In this document: positions 10,847-18,017 of the stretch, piece by piece | How positions within the stretch are numbered: position 1 is the stretch's first letter | How the letters are laid out: every line of letters starts with the position of its first letter | Virus record (IMG/VR): IMGVR_UViG_3300047089_000149 | Location: 1 to 21,447 of that record | Length of the DNA: 21,447 bases | DNA from: a virus | Direction: 5' to 3' (one strand) | Notes under the pieces: model-generated | The model's input: only the letters and a program-made list of their open reading frames with translations | What the model was told of the DNA's origin: nothing | Database searches by the model: none | Position numbers and translations under genes: made by a program

Positions 10847-11005
10847 TCGGTGCTTGAGACAAGCAGACACAACCAGGAACAGGCATAGAGCGTGGACCGC
10901 TGGGAGAGAAGCGGTGCGGTGAGTGGGAGTTAATAAGATGCAGTCAGAGAGGGTGTGTCCGCCACTGGGGGTAAAGCAGACAAAATGACTTAACGCATTG
11001 TCGTG

Positions 11006-11176
11006 CTATCGTTTTTCCAGATTGGCGATTGGCCATGGTCCTCGCCCTGTACCATTAACAGAGGGGTCAAAATATATTTTACTGTTAACGGGGAACGCTG
11101 CATGAAGGTGCAAATCAACCCGAAAAGGCCACCCAATGCGAACCCGTTTTTCTGTCGATATTCTCACCCAGGGCAT
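11006..11176 (-). CDS. Possible 56-residue protein, unknown
   Basis: A 56-codon frame starts at ATG 11176, ten bases after the previous stop, with AGGTGG five bases before it, and ends in TAG. The product is basic and lacks any motif or membrane segment. Its spacing fits the leftward operon, and it would fill part of an otherwise long gap before int. Against it, the composition is unremarkable and an open frame also exists on the other strand. I rate it as possible only. Confidence 0.3.
   Translation of the reverse strand: MPWVRISTEKRVRIGWPFRVDLHLHAAFPVNSKIYFDPSVNGTGRGPWPIANLEKR
11055..11088. promoter_or_regulatory. A+T-rich dyad, possible protein-binding site
   Basis: TTAACAG (11055-11061) is repeated in inverted form as CTGTTAA (11082-11088), around a spacer that contains the perfect palindrome AAAATATATTTT (11069-11080). 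The nested symmetry and low G+C against a G+C-rich background suggest a bound site (operator, integrase/IHF-type site or promoter). It would lie inside the doubtful 56-residue frame. Confidence 0.3.
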
Positions 11177-14713: not shown

Positions 14714-15208
14714 TTATTTAATTCTGACCGCCAGCGTGTCCTCGGCATTGCTCAAGGTGGCACCTGGCACTGGCTTGAACTGGCTCAGCTCATCTTTGAT
14801 TTTCGTTCTATTCGGCTCGCGCTTGATCCTGCAAAACTCATCAGGAATTTGCGCCTCATCAACAATGATCACCTTGGGCACACCGAGACGCACTGACAGA
14901 GTGCATTCAGGAATTTCCAATTTCTTGAGGTGTGCTGTCTGCAGAAGCTTGAGCATCAGGTCGCGGATGGCTTCATCACGCCGATCAAAGCGCGACTGAC
15001 GCTGCCGCCAGTTGTCGATCAAGGTGTCGATCGCGGCCGCCGTCGCAGTAGCCTGCTGCCGGGCTGTTTCCAGCCTGCGCAAAAACTCAACCAGGTCGGT
15101 TGAGCCTTCGATCATGTCGGTGCGCAGCACCTCATCATCAGCCAGCTCAGGATAGGAAACGAGCAGGCTTTCGATCTGGTGCTTGATGGCAGCAGGGTCG
15201 AGGCGCAT
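14714..15208 (-). CDS. Gp157-family protein (siphovirus Gp157)
   Basis: The 164-residue protein matches the Gp157 layout. There is a long N-terminal helix ending in AAAIDTLIDNWRQRQSRFDR, then RRDEAIRDLMLKLLQTAHLK. A beta region follows with KLEIPECTLSVRLG, KVIIVDEAQIPDEFCRIKRE and PNRTKIKDELSQFKPVPGA, and the C-terminus has a T-L-x-V-R segment. Gp157 proteins sit beside phage recombinase genes; one member was linked to phage resistance in Streptococcus thermophilus. A DNA-processing role is likely but not proven. The start overlaps the stop of the annealing-protein gene (TGATG). Confidence 0.85.
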   Translation of the reverse strand: MRLDPAAIKHQIESLLVSYPELADDEVLRTDMIEGSTDLVEFLRRLETARQQATATAAAIDTLIDNWRQRQSRFDRRDEAIRDLMLKLLQTAHLKKLEIPECTLSVRLGVPKVIIVDEAQIPDEFCRIKREPNRTKIKDELSQFKPVPGATLSNAEDTLAVRIK

Positions 15209-15987
15209 CAGTCTTGAACCTCATCGGATTGATGGATGGCATCCAGCAGCTTTTTATGTTCGGTCGGCTCAGCCTTGCGCATGGCCTCAAGCGTGGTTCG
15301 GTTAGCCTGCAGCCAGGGGCCGCGCTCGCCATTGGCGCGGATCATGGTCAGGAGCTCGATGCTCCAGGTGTGCCAATCATCCGATCCATCAGCCAGCTTC
15401 GGCACTGCAAAGGCATGTGCCGGAACATCAGTCGCCGTGAGTGGTGTGACCTGTTCATCAGGCTTTTCTTCGGGAGGGTAAAGCCGGGTTGGTTGCCTTC
15501 TCTCGGGAACGCGGGGTGCATCATCACCTTCGCTGTCGAGAAACCCGAGTCCGCAAATTGAAAGCGTGACCCGGCGCTTGGCTTTGGTCACAGCTTTAAG
15601 AATTAAATTAGCAACGGCTTCACCACCACGCAGCTGACCAAGCGTGACGACACCGACATCCTCATCCGTGCGGCCGGTGTCGTCTTTCGCCCTCGCATGG
15701 ACAGTGTAAAGGCCATCAGCACTCAAATCCTGGCTGACAATTTCAAGCGAGATGCCGTGGATTTTGCGCAGCTGCTCGGCACAGGATTTGTTCGGATAGA
15801 GCACCAGCTTTCCGTTGAGATACAAATAATCGAATGGCTTGGTGAGCGGATTTAAGCCGACCATCTTGCAAACTGCATCGTGGTATTCCAGCTTTTGTTG
15901 CTCAGTCAGCTTCGACAGATCACCCTTGAACAGAGCGGCATTGATGGCCGGGATGCTGTCGTCAGCCTTTTTCGCTGGGATGCTCAT
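15208..15987 (-). CDS. Probable single-strand annealing recombinase (RecT/Bet-like)
   Basis: The 259-residue protein has the core seen in many phage annealing proteins: EYHDAVCKMVGLNPLTKPFD with YLYLNGKLVLYPNKSCAEQL (residues 34-73), a beta region with an acidic G-R-T-D-x-D-x-G-V-V motif, and EAVANLILKAVTKAKRRVTL followed by SICGLGFLD (about 123-151). The K-A-x-T-K-A-K-R-R helix is typical. C-terminal residues 155-259 are a Pro-rich linker and a helical tail. Such proteins anneal complementary strands in phage recombination and replication. Neighbouring Gp157 supports this. No partner exonuclease is seen in the window. It overlaps both neighbours (ATGA, TGATG). Confidence 0.6.
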   Translation of the reverse strand: MSIPAKKADDSIPAINAALFKGDLSKLTEQQKLEYHDAVCKMVGLNPLTKPFDYLYLNGKLVLYPNKSCAEQLRKIHGISLEIVSQDLSADGLYTVHARAKDDTGRTDEDVGVVTLGQLRGGEAVANLILKAVTKAKRRVTLSICGLGFLDSEGDDAPRVPERRQPTRLYPPEEKPDEQVTPLTATDVPAHAFAVPKLADGSDDWHTWSIELLTMIRANGERGPWLQANRTTLEAMRKAEPTEHKKLLDAIHQSDEVQD

Positions 15988-16256
15988 GGTGTCTCCGTGA
16001 TGAGGATGATTTCACCGAAGGCGGCGTAGCAGCCGTGGCCGATGGAGTGCGGGCCACGCCAGCTGCTGCCAAAATTGGCTCCGTGCTGCTCAAGTTCGGC
16101 CACTAGGCTGGCGATATAGTCCTGCACATCCTGGCTGCGGCTGCCGTAAAGTCGATATTCGGTGCAGTTAGGTCTGGATGCACTGGCCTTGCGCTCAACG
16201 CGCACCGCTGGCCTTCTGTGGGCATCCAGGTTGATGATGTGGTCGGCCACTGTCAT
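15984..16256 (-). CDS. Small protein, first gene of the leftward operon, unknown
   Basis: GGGAGA seven bases before the ATG at 16256 marks the start (90 residues); an in-frame TTG five codons upstream would use no site. The sequence has a basic middle (RRPAVRVERKASASRPN), then TEYRLYGSRSQDVQDYIASL and SSWRGPHSIGHGCYAAFGEI. No family recognised. It is the promoter-proximal gene of the leftward operon, 30 bases from the -10, and overlaps the annealing-protein start by ATGA. Confidence 0.65.
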   Translation of the reverse strand: MTVADHIINLDAHRRPAVRVERKASASRPNCTEYRLYGSRSQDVQDYIASLVAELEQHGANFGSSWRGPHSIGHGCYAAFGEIILITETP

Positions 16257-16284: not shown

Positions 16285-16314
16285 ATTATAAGTCCAAGAA
16301 GTTTTGACTAGCAA
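16285..16314 (-). promoter_or_regulatory. Leftward early promoter (PL-like)
   Basis: On the minus strand a perfect TATAAT -10 (16285-16290) stands 18 bases from TTGCTA (16309-16314), a 4/6 match to the -35 consensus. It drives the leftward operon beginning at 16256. A 19-bp dyad operator fills the spacer exactly, so a bound regulator would block RNA polymerase. Confidence 0.75.
16291..16309. promoter_or_regulatory. Operator site A (in leftward promoter spacer)
   Basis: AGTCCAA-GAAGT-TTTGACT: two 7-base arms in inverted order around five bases, with one mismatch between arms. It is the best copy of a motif found four times in the immunity region and nowhere else I could see in full form. Confidence 0.7.
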
Positions 16315-16321
16315 GGCGGAG

Positions 16322-16340
16322 AGGCCAAAATTCTTGTCCT
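16322..16340. promoter_or_regulatory. Operator site D (upstream of the leftward promoter)
   Basis: AGGCCAA-AATTC-TTGTCCT has the same 7-5-7 dyad layout and a degenerate match to site A. Its centre is 31 bases (about three helical turns) from that of A, a spacing suited to cooperative binding. It overlaps TTGTCC, a possible -35 for a rightward promoter with TATAAA at 16360-16365. Confidence 0.5.
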
Positions 16341-16431
16341 CCACTTTTAGCTTGCAGGCTATAAAAATTGTGTCAGAATTTTACCAACGCCAACGGGACG
16401 GAAACGCTGGGGAGCGTATTCACTAACAAAG

Positions 16432-16448
16432 CCTCTCTGAAAGAGAGG
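16432..16448 (+). promoter_or_regulatory. Hairpin covering the ribosome-binding site of the 118-residue frame
   Basis: CCTCTCT (16432-16438), loop GAA, AGAGAGG (16442-16448) form a perfect 7-bp stem. The 3' arm is the only ribosome-binding site for the ATG at 16453, so in mRNA it would be hidden unless opened. Confidence 0.45.
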
Positions 16449-16452
16449 ATGC

Positions 16453-16809
16453 ATGCCGTTTAACTCTGCGGAAATGCAGGCGATTTTTGAAATTTTGCAC
16501 GAACTAGAGGCAGCAGCGCCTGGCCTGCTGGCCCTTGTCCAAACTACCGAAACACCATTGGCAAAAGGACTGCAGCCTGGTGTTGAGCATTTGGCTTATC
16601 TGACGCGCTGGTGGTTTGGCGGAGAGTTGTCCCCACAAGTCACAGGCGGCGCTTCCGCCTCTTCACGGCTTTCGAAGCGGGGCCGTTCGGGGTCGGGCCA
16701 TCCAGTTCGCCCAATTTCTTCGCCAAATCCAAAGGCAGGTGCGTATGGTAGCCGAAATAAAGCCAATCGCTCGTCAGGCCGTGCACCTTCTCGCACAGTA
16801 AAAAGATGA
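16453..16809 (+). CDS. Possible small protein of the immunity region, unknown
   Basis: The frame gives 118 residues. Residues 6-60 look like a real protein (AEMQAIFEILHELEAAAPGL, then HLAYLTRWWFGG). From about residue 63 it runs antisense to the 3' half of the repressor gene and becomes a low-complexity Ser/Arg/Gly tail, a sign of shadow coding. AGAGAGG precedes the ATG by four bases but lies within a hairpin. It could be a regulated immunity-region gene or a chance frame; convergent overlap of 170 bases with the repressor argues for caution. Confidence 0.35.
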   Translation: MPFNSAEMQAIFEILHELEAAAPGLLALVQTTETPLAKGLQPGVEHLAYLTRWWFGGELSPQVTGGASASSRLSKRGRSGSGHPVRPISSPNPKAGAYGSRNKANRSSGRAPSRTVKR

Positions 16810-16993
16810 TCTCGCGCGGTAACGGATACCCGCGTTCGTAATTGTTCCAGCGCGCCTTGGAAAGCCCGAGAAACCTGGCGAAAGCTGCTGCCTGGGGGAA
16901 ACCCAGGGCAAGGCGCAGGCGCTTCAAGCGCTCTGCAGTGGGGTCAGGGGCCCTGTGCCCTGGGTTCATGACGGCATACCAAGTCTTCTTCAT
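16640..16993 (-). CDS. XRE-family phage repressor (short, cI-like)
   Basis: The 117-residue protein has one XRE helix-turn-helix: TAERLKRLRLALGFPQAAAF (residues 19-38), ARFLGLSKARWNNYERGYPL with the recognition helix, and a stabilising SDWLYFG at 75-81. A basic tail ends KRRKRRL. No LexA-like S24 peptidase part is present, so RecA-stimulated self-cleavage is not expected, unlike lambda cI. It sits between two outward early promoters and has a Cro-like gene divergent from it, the normal arrangement of an immunity region. No ribosome-binding site precedes the ATG, so the transcript may be leaderless. Confidence 0.75.
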   Translation of the reverse strand: MKKTWYAVMNPGHRAPDPTAERLKRLRLALGFPQAAAFARFLGLSKARWNNYERGYPLPREIIFLLCEKVHGLTSDWLYFGYHTHLPLDLAKKLGELDGPTPNGPASKAVKRRKRRL

Positions 16994-17016
16994 GTTGAGC
17001 AGACTAGCATTTTGCC

Positions 17017-17039
17017 TTTACTGGTAAACTTATTTTTAC
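17017..17039. promoter_or_regulatory. TTTAC/GTAAA half-site cluster upstream of the repressor
   Basis: TTTAC at 17017-17021, GTAAA at 17024-17028 and TTTAC at 17035-17039 form one tight dyad (TTTACTGGTAAA) and a second looser one. They lie 24-46 bases before the repressor ATG, over its expected promoter, and differ in sequence from the AGTCCAA operators. They could be the target of the Cro-like protein. Confidence 0.45.
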
Positions 17040-17044
17040 ACAAG

Positions 17045-17063
17045 TCTCCAAGGATTTTGGACT
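17045..17063. promoter_or_regulatory. Operator site B (upstream of the rightward promoter)
   Basis: TCTCCAA-GGATT-TTGGACT; the inner TCCAA-N5... TTGGA core is a perfect dyad. It matches 12 of 14 arm positions of the AGTCCAA-N5-TTKGACT consensus and ends two bases before the rightward -35, so bound protein could stop polymerase or contact it. Confidence 0.6.
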
Positions 17064-17064
17064 A

Positions 17065-17093
17065 TTGATCGTCCAAATGTTTTTGACTATTAT
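17065..17093 (+). promoter_or_regulatory. Rightward early promoter (PR-like)
   Basis: TTGATC (17065-17070) and TATTAT (17088-17093, 5/6 match) are 17 bases apart. Transcription would start at about 17100-17103, which is the ATG of the cro-like gene, so the message probably has no leader. Operator C fills the spacer. Confidence 0.7.
17070..17088. promoter_or_regulatory. Operator site C (in rightward promoter spacer)
   Basis: CGTCCAA-ATGTT-TTTGACT differs from site A in one arm base. It lies in the -35/-10 spacer just as A does in the leftward promoter; its centre is 25 bases from that of site B. Confidence 0.7.
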
Positions 17094-17441: not shown

Positions 17442-17495
17442 GTTGCGTCTGCGTTGCGTTTGTTTGTTCACCAGCGAAAGGGCGGGTCCGCGCTC

Positions 17496-18017
17496 ATGGC
17501 ATCACTGCCACCAACCAGCACCCCTGCTGATGGGCATGGCCCGCCCCGAACATCACGCAACAAACGCTGGCCTTGTGACCTGCTGCAAAGCTTCCTGGCG
17601 CTGTGGAATGAAAACAAACTATCGGCTTCGCAAATGGCAGGGCGTCTCGGCATTTCACGCGGTGCAGTCCTGGGCAAAGCGCATCGCCTCGGCCTGACCA
17701 CACACCGCAAGGTCAGGCAGGCAAAGCCGCGCAAGCCATTGCCACTGACCTACCGGCCGCTGAAAACCCTGCCGCCAGTGATGCCGATCATGGATGAGCC
17801 AGCACCAGCATCACCGGAGTTCCTGGGGCTGTCCCTGCTTGAGCTGAAGGCATCAAGCTGCCGGTATCCGCATGGTGAGGCTGCACCGTTTTTCTTCTGC
17901 GGCCAGCCTCAGCAGGATGGCTCATCGTATTGCCCGTACCACCACCGACTGACCCATCACGCCCTATCAGCTCACCGGCCACTGACTGACTACATCCCGC
18001 GCGGGGTCAATCCATGA
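17496..18017 (+). CDS. gcrA: GcrA-family cell-cycle regulator, phage-borne
   Basis: The protein of 173 residues has the GcrA signature: a helix-turn-helix with FLALWNENKLSASQMAGRLG (residues 33-52) and ISRGAVLGKAHRLGL (53-67), a Pro/Lys-rich linker, then LSLLELKASSCRYPHG and PFFFCGQPQQDGSSYCPYHH (about 112-150) with Cys and His at the usual places. In Caulobacter GcrA binds sigma-70 polymerase at CcrM-methylated GANTC promoters. This one has about 24 extra N-terminal residues, and the ATG at 17496 is the best start (the frame opens at a TTG at 17454). As second gene after cro it could redirect host transcription or time replication. Confidence 0.85.
   Translation: MASLPPTSTPADGHGPPRTSRNKRWPCDLLQSFLALWNENKLSASQMAGRLGISRGAVLGKAHRLGLTTHRKVRQAKPRKPLPLTYRPLKTLPPVMPIMDEPAPASPEFLGLSLLELKASSCRYPHGEAAPFFFCGQPQQDGSSYCPYHHRLTHHALSAHRPLTDYIPRGVNP

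Follow-up and report, generated by a model that had tools for sequence, protein, structure and literature searches.

How a single protein might silence two early operons that run away from each other is the question raised by a 21,447-nucleotide stretch of viral DNA (IMG/VR record IMGVR_UViG_3300047089_000149, hereafter the window), in which four similar dyads, designated A to D, lie on either side of a gene encoding an XRE-family repressor. A first-pass annotation of this DNA had proposed that one repressor could switch off both operons. The sites themselves, their presence in related phages and their association with repressors that carry a lysine at position 28 support that reading, and suggest that the region governs the immunity (lysis-lysogeny decision) of a temperate tailed phage, in which one repressor acting on A-D would silence both early operons; we put the probability of this reading at about 0.86. 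The features discussed are listed in Table 1.

Table 1. Features of the proposed immunity region and of the integrase-side block (window coordinates; promoters are predicted)
Feature	Positions	Strand	Description
Conserved integrase-side block	10860-11100		candidate attP or integrase control region
AT-rich dyad in this block	11065-11083		weak motif copy, GGTCAAAATATATTTTACT
Weak relative of the leader dyad	11078-11089		TTTACTGTTAAC; adjoins the AT-rich dyad
Sipho_Gp157 / Mu Gam-like end-protection protein	14714-15208	-	leftward operon; family match
First gene of leftward early operon	15984-16256	-	90 aa from ATG at 16256; Shine-Dalgarno-like GGGAGA
PL (leftward promoter)	16285-16314	-	-35 TTGCTA 16314-16309, N18, -10 TATAAT 16290-16285
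Operator A	16291-16309		AGTCCAAGAAGTTTTGACT; occupies 18-bp spacer of PL
Operator B	16322-16340		AGGCCAAAATTCTTGTCCT; 7 bp upstream of PL -35
Hairpin CCTCTC-loop-GAGAGG	16432-16448		directly before the rightward ORF
Rightward ORF between PL and repressor	16453-16809	+	overlaps repressor 3' end antisense
XRE (HTH_3) repressor, 117 aa	16640-16993	-	recognition helix SKARWNNYERG
Repressor gene leader	16994-17044	-	near-invariant; contains the leader dyad
Leader dyad TTTAC-TG-GTAAA	17017-17028		TTTACTGGTAAA
Operator C	17045-17063		TCTCCAAGGATTTTGGACT; 1 bp upstream of PR -35, between PR and repressor leader
PR (rightward promoter)	17065-17093	+	-35 TTGATC 17065-17070, N17, -10 TATTAT 17088-17093
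Operator D	17070-17088		CGTCCAAATGTTTTTGACT; occupies 17-bp spacer of PR
Cro-like DNA-binding protein, 112 aa	17103-17441	+	carph-isopro-type HTH, helix ASRQTVSNWRR
GcrA-like cell-cycle regulator homolog	17454-18017	+	second gene of rightward early operon; family match

The integrase gene lies past the leftward operon, and genes for baseplate J and an amidase were found in the first 9 kb of the window. A homolog of GcrA suggests an alphaproteobacterial host, and the host of this temperate tailed phage is probably an alphaproteobacterium. Family matches of the Cro-like protein, to carph-isopro and phrog_8008, were weak. Rfam and tRNA scans gave no matches.

The existence of the four dyads was confirmed, and chance does not account for them. 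The motif AGTCCAA-N5-TTKGACT had been assigned to all four positions, and the coordinates were correct; the literal motif is found only at A, the sites D, C and B departing from it by one, two and three mismatches, respectively. Centre-to-centre spacing is 31 bp between A and B on the left and 25 bp between C and D on the right. An equal frequency of the motif elsewhere, which the annotation had named as grounds for giving up the operators, was not observed: A-D are the four best matches in the 21.4-kb window and its only places where 11 or more of the 14 positions agree with the symmetric form AGTCCAA-N5-TTGGACT. Dinucleotide shuffling of the 0.8-kb region produced four sites with at least 10 of 14 matches in one of 2000 shuffles. 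When up to three mismatches were allowed across the whole window, 10 strand-matches were counted against a mean of 2.07, a number reached in none of 100 shuffles.

The two predicted promoters, proposed earlier as TTGCTA-N18-TATAAT leftward and TTGATC-N17-TATTAT rightward, are correct as sequences and represent two of the three promoter-like matches in 1 kb, where 0.4 would be expected. Each had been said to hold a copy of the motif in its spacer. This is so for A in PL, with B upstream of the PL -35, and on the right the labels C and D had apparently been exchanged, if letters follow coordinates: the dyad at 17070-17088 fills the PR spacer and that at 17045-17063 lies upstream. Only 9 nt separate the PR -10 from the ATG of the Cro-like gene, and its mRNA is therefore probably leaderless. 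The promoter of the repressor gene itself is presumably located within the leader.

Two related contigs were compared with the window, one (G001) encoding a repressor 98% identical and the other (G002) a repressor 89% identical to that of the window; the Cro-like protein of G002 showed 74% identity over the aligned part. All four operators are present in both, operator A being identical in each, and operator B forms a perfect dyad in G002 (CGGCCAA-TTATC-TTGGCCG). Between the window and G002 the arms were changed at 2 of 48 positions (twelve arm positions at each of four sites), compared with 9 of 20 positions in the 5-bp spacers (Fisher p=1.3e-4). The sites are thus not lost where the repressor helix is kept, an outcome that had also been listed as a possible objection: relatives with the helix (SKGRWNNFERG in G002) retain all four, with arms conserved over spacers. 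The promoters are kept in G002 as TTGCAA-N18-TATAAT (PL) and TTGAAA-N17-TATTAT (PR). Among 385 alphaproteobacterial genomes, relatives of the repressor had 31-45% identity over the HTH and other residues at position 28, and the P0001 search of genome contigs returned no relatives.

Three further elements in and near this region were noted in the same comparison. One is the rightward ORF at 16453-16809, which remains open in the same frame and at nearly the same length in the relatives (118, 118 and 121 aa) and varies most at third positions; a search for family matches to it found none. The stem of the hairpin preceding it is kept and the loop altered in G002, and on the minus strand this hairpin could act as terminator of the repressor transcript. 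Upstream of the integrase gene, a block of about 240 bp is strongly conserved in the three phages. It includes the only other weak motif copy common to all three, which was considered as a fifth site and rejected as a separate footprint because the whole block is conserved; this copy is more likely part of an attachment or integrase control region.

The occurrence of the operator outside this phage group was assessed by scanning viral and genome collections with the pattern TTG-N3-GTCMAA-N5-TTKGACT-WWWWW, which places the operator within a promoter spacer. The pattern matched 12 viral contigs, two of which belong to the present phage group, and 33 genome contigs. Matches with the symmetric core GTCCAA-N5-TTGGAC adjoined XRE genes in seven of eight viral and seven of seven genome contigs (14/15 together), and relaxed matches did so in one of two viral and none of 26 genome contigs (1/28 together), a division into symmetric and relaxed that was chosen after the result was seen. 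The 15 XRE-adjoining contigs represent approximately seven repressor clades, assigned by eye and mostly from Firmicutes. Many loci had additional copies of the motif, which in tandem arrays are spaced by about 27-40 bp; some 20 of these lay within 700 bp of the sites (21 kb), compared with six in the remaining 93 kb of the loci. The bare palindrome AGTCCAA-N5-TTGGACT gave mostly chance matches in viral contigs, with one of 113 adjoining an XRE gene, and the motif is therefore uninformative without its promoter context. A strict two-site pattern was also discarded: it matched two contigs, against one with a control pattern, and one of its matches (L146) proved to be a direct repeat where a primase-like gene ends.

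The window repressor matched PF01381 (HTH_3) at 24.8 bits, with a cut-off of 23. An AlphaFold2 model built from three sequences was confident over the HTH only (pLDDT of 80-89 for the block of residues 21-70), and in it helix 3 begins at K46. The nearest PDB folds identified by Foldseek were 434 repressor, P22 c2 and 434 Cro, all weak matches with E values of at least 0.018; nothing was found below an E value of 0.001. The predicted domain, an HTH_3 unit of five helices with helix 3 as the recognition helix, agrees with the DNA-binding fold of 434 and P22 c2. A LexA-like peptidase or self-cleavage domain was looked for in the 117 residues and the HTH alone was found; we have therefore not classed the protein as a CI-type cleavable repressor, and the phage is unlikely to be induced through RecA-stimulated self-cleavage. 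The self-cleavage domain is likewise missing from other small repressors, for example P2 C.

Position 28, in 434 numbering, corresponds to K46 of this protein. The window repressor has K28, A29 and N33, and K28 is shared by the nearest repressor-type XRE at each of the XRE-adjoining operator sites, usually as K-Q or K-T at positions 28-29 and with S, N, A or E at position 33. Among 99 background XRE domains, drawn from a single Firmicutes family (40 genomes) in a way that favours high-scoring HTH_3 proteins, four had K28 and 73 had R28. None of these four K28 proteins had an operator match at one mismatch or fewer, and the repressors of Sinorhizobium phage Aussie and Rhodobacter phage RcWaterboi combine K28 and S29 with no AGTCCAA operator, so that K28 alone does not predict the operator. 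At several unrelated phage or prophage loci (L019, L020, L022, L024, L025 and L155), K28 is found in both divergent XRE proteins, the repressor and its Cro-like partner, which would be expected of two proteins reading the same operators.

The half-sites of the 434 operator (ACAA) and of the P22 operator (TTAA) are about as far from the centre of the dyad as those considered here. The present half-site, CCAA or CAAA, has AA in common with them and differs in the outer two bases, which is in line with a lysine reading a guanine on the opposite strand. The base read by K28, which opens helix 3, is probably the guanine of the outer C:G pairs. We consider the chances about even that AGTCCAA-N5-TTGGACT defines a specificity class that recurs in unrelated phages from both Proteobacteria and Firmicutes, with lysine 28 and the residues at 29 and 33 reading the operator, such that the helix alone would predict operator and immunity group.

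According to the proposed mechanism, the XRE repressor would dimerise and set one recognition helix on each arm (AGTCCAA and TTKGACT) of every 19-bp operator. Repressor bound at A and D, inside the -35/-10 spacers, would exclude RNA polymerase from PL and PR, and both early operons would as a consequence be silent in the lysogen. Sites B and C may serve cooperativity or set the level of the repressor itself; that both are imperfect counts against the scheme. The Cro-like protein, as the first PR product, is probably a competitor for the same sites. Its use of A-D is an assumption, since it has a different type of HTH and an arginine at the matching place.

An alternative assignment of the dyads was considered, in which they are bound mainly by the Cro-like protein or a host regulator, the XRE repressor having its target elsewhere, for instance at TTTACTGGTAAA in its leader. 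The helix of the Cro-like protein (ASRQTVSNWRR) does not vary among the relatives, including G002 where the whole protein is 74% identical, and the leader differs from that of G002 at only 2 of 51 positions, as this assignment would lead one to expect. However, there is a single copy of TTTACTGGTAAA and PL lacks it, so that this dyad cannot account for the silencing of both operons. The same operator in unrelated phages, moreover, adjoins XRE repressors sharing residue 28, and among the listed neighbours at those sites there is no relative of the window's Cro-like protein. We regard this alternative as unlikely. That the dyads are incidental products of sigma-70 promoter constraint and AT-richness is highly improbable: two of the four overlap promoters and all are AT-rich in a contig of 57% GC, but B and C do not overlap the hexamers, the arms are conserved while the central five bases vary, and the shuffles described above hardly ever yielded four sites.

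Repression of both operons by the XRE protein through A-D thus remains the preferred reading, and as judged from sequence the PL-repressor-PR architecture is that of a textbook lambda-style, ordinary and well-supported phage immunity region. As in lambda and 434, the repressor gene lies between two outward early promoters, the operators overlap both and are similar to each other, and a divergent cro-like gene is the first on the right, here a gene with weak family matches and a carph-isopro HTH. Two sites are present per side, compared with three in lambda and 434. The operator is 19 bp in length and odd-centred, with the core CCAA-N5-TTGG, unlike the ACAA-N6-TTGT of the 434 operator, and unlike these phages the window encodes a 117-aa repressor in which no cleavage domain was seen and an extra rightward ORF over the 3' end of the repressor gene.

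The nearest annotated phage repressors were those of Rhizobium phage RR1-B, Sinorhizobium phage Aussie, Rhodobacter phage RcWaterboi and Bradyrhizobium phage ppBeUSDA76-1, with 34-38% identity over the HTH and genes that, as here, diverge from the early genes. The AGTCCAA operator was sought at the repressor regions of these four phages and was absent; they have other recognition-helix residues and other dyads. Rhizobium phage 16-3 is an alphaproteobacterial temperate phage whose C repressor acts at operators at the early promoters with CAA/TTG-type half-sites; these are of the form ACAA-N4/6-TTGT, unlike the operator described here. A further comparison is offered by the repressor of phage 933W, the key lysines of which appear in our alignment to fall at helix positions 29 and 33, not 28. 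This is a 434-type repressor with an odd-length dyad, for which recognition-helix lysines were modelled to contact half-site guanines, and its operator, of 15 bp, has a half-site unlike that of the 19-bp operator here (PMC3317979).

A search for the operator sequence in the open-access literature found nothing relevant, and as far as that literature shows this particular operator is undescribed; that it recurs together with one common helix residue is a modest generalisation. No member of this uncultured phage group has been characterised, and the analysis provides for it a concrete operator sequence with four sites and two predicted promoters. It also illustrates that operators can be validated from sequence, by arms kept over spacers and by the same operator turning up next to repressors whose helices match. 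Recurring in approximately seven separate repressor clades, the pairing of one operator with one helix residue would amount to a small, testable protein-DNA code for the prediction of phage immunity groups.
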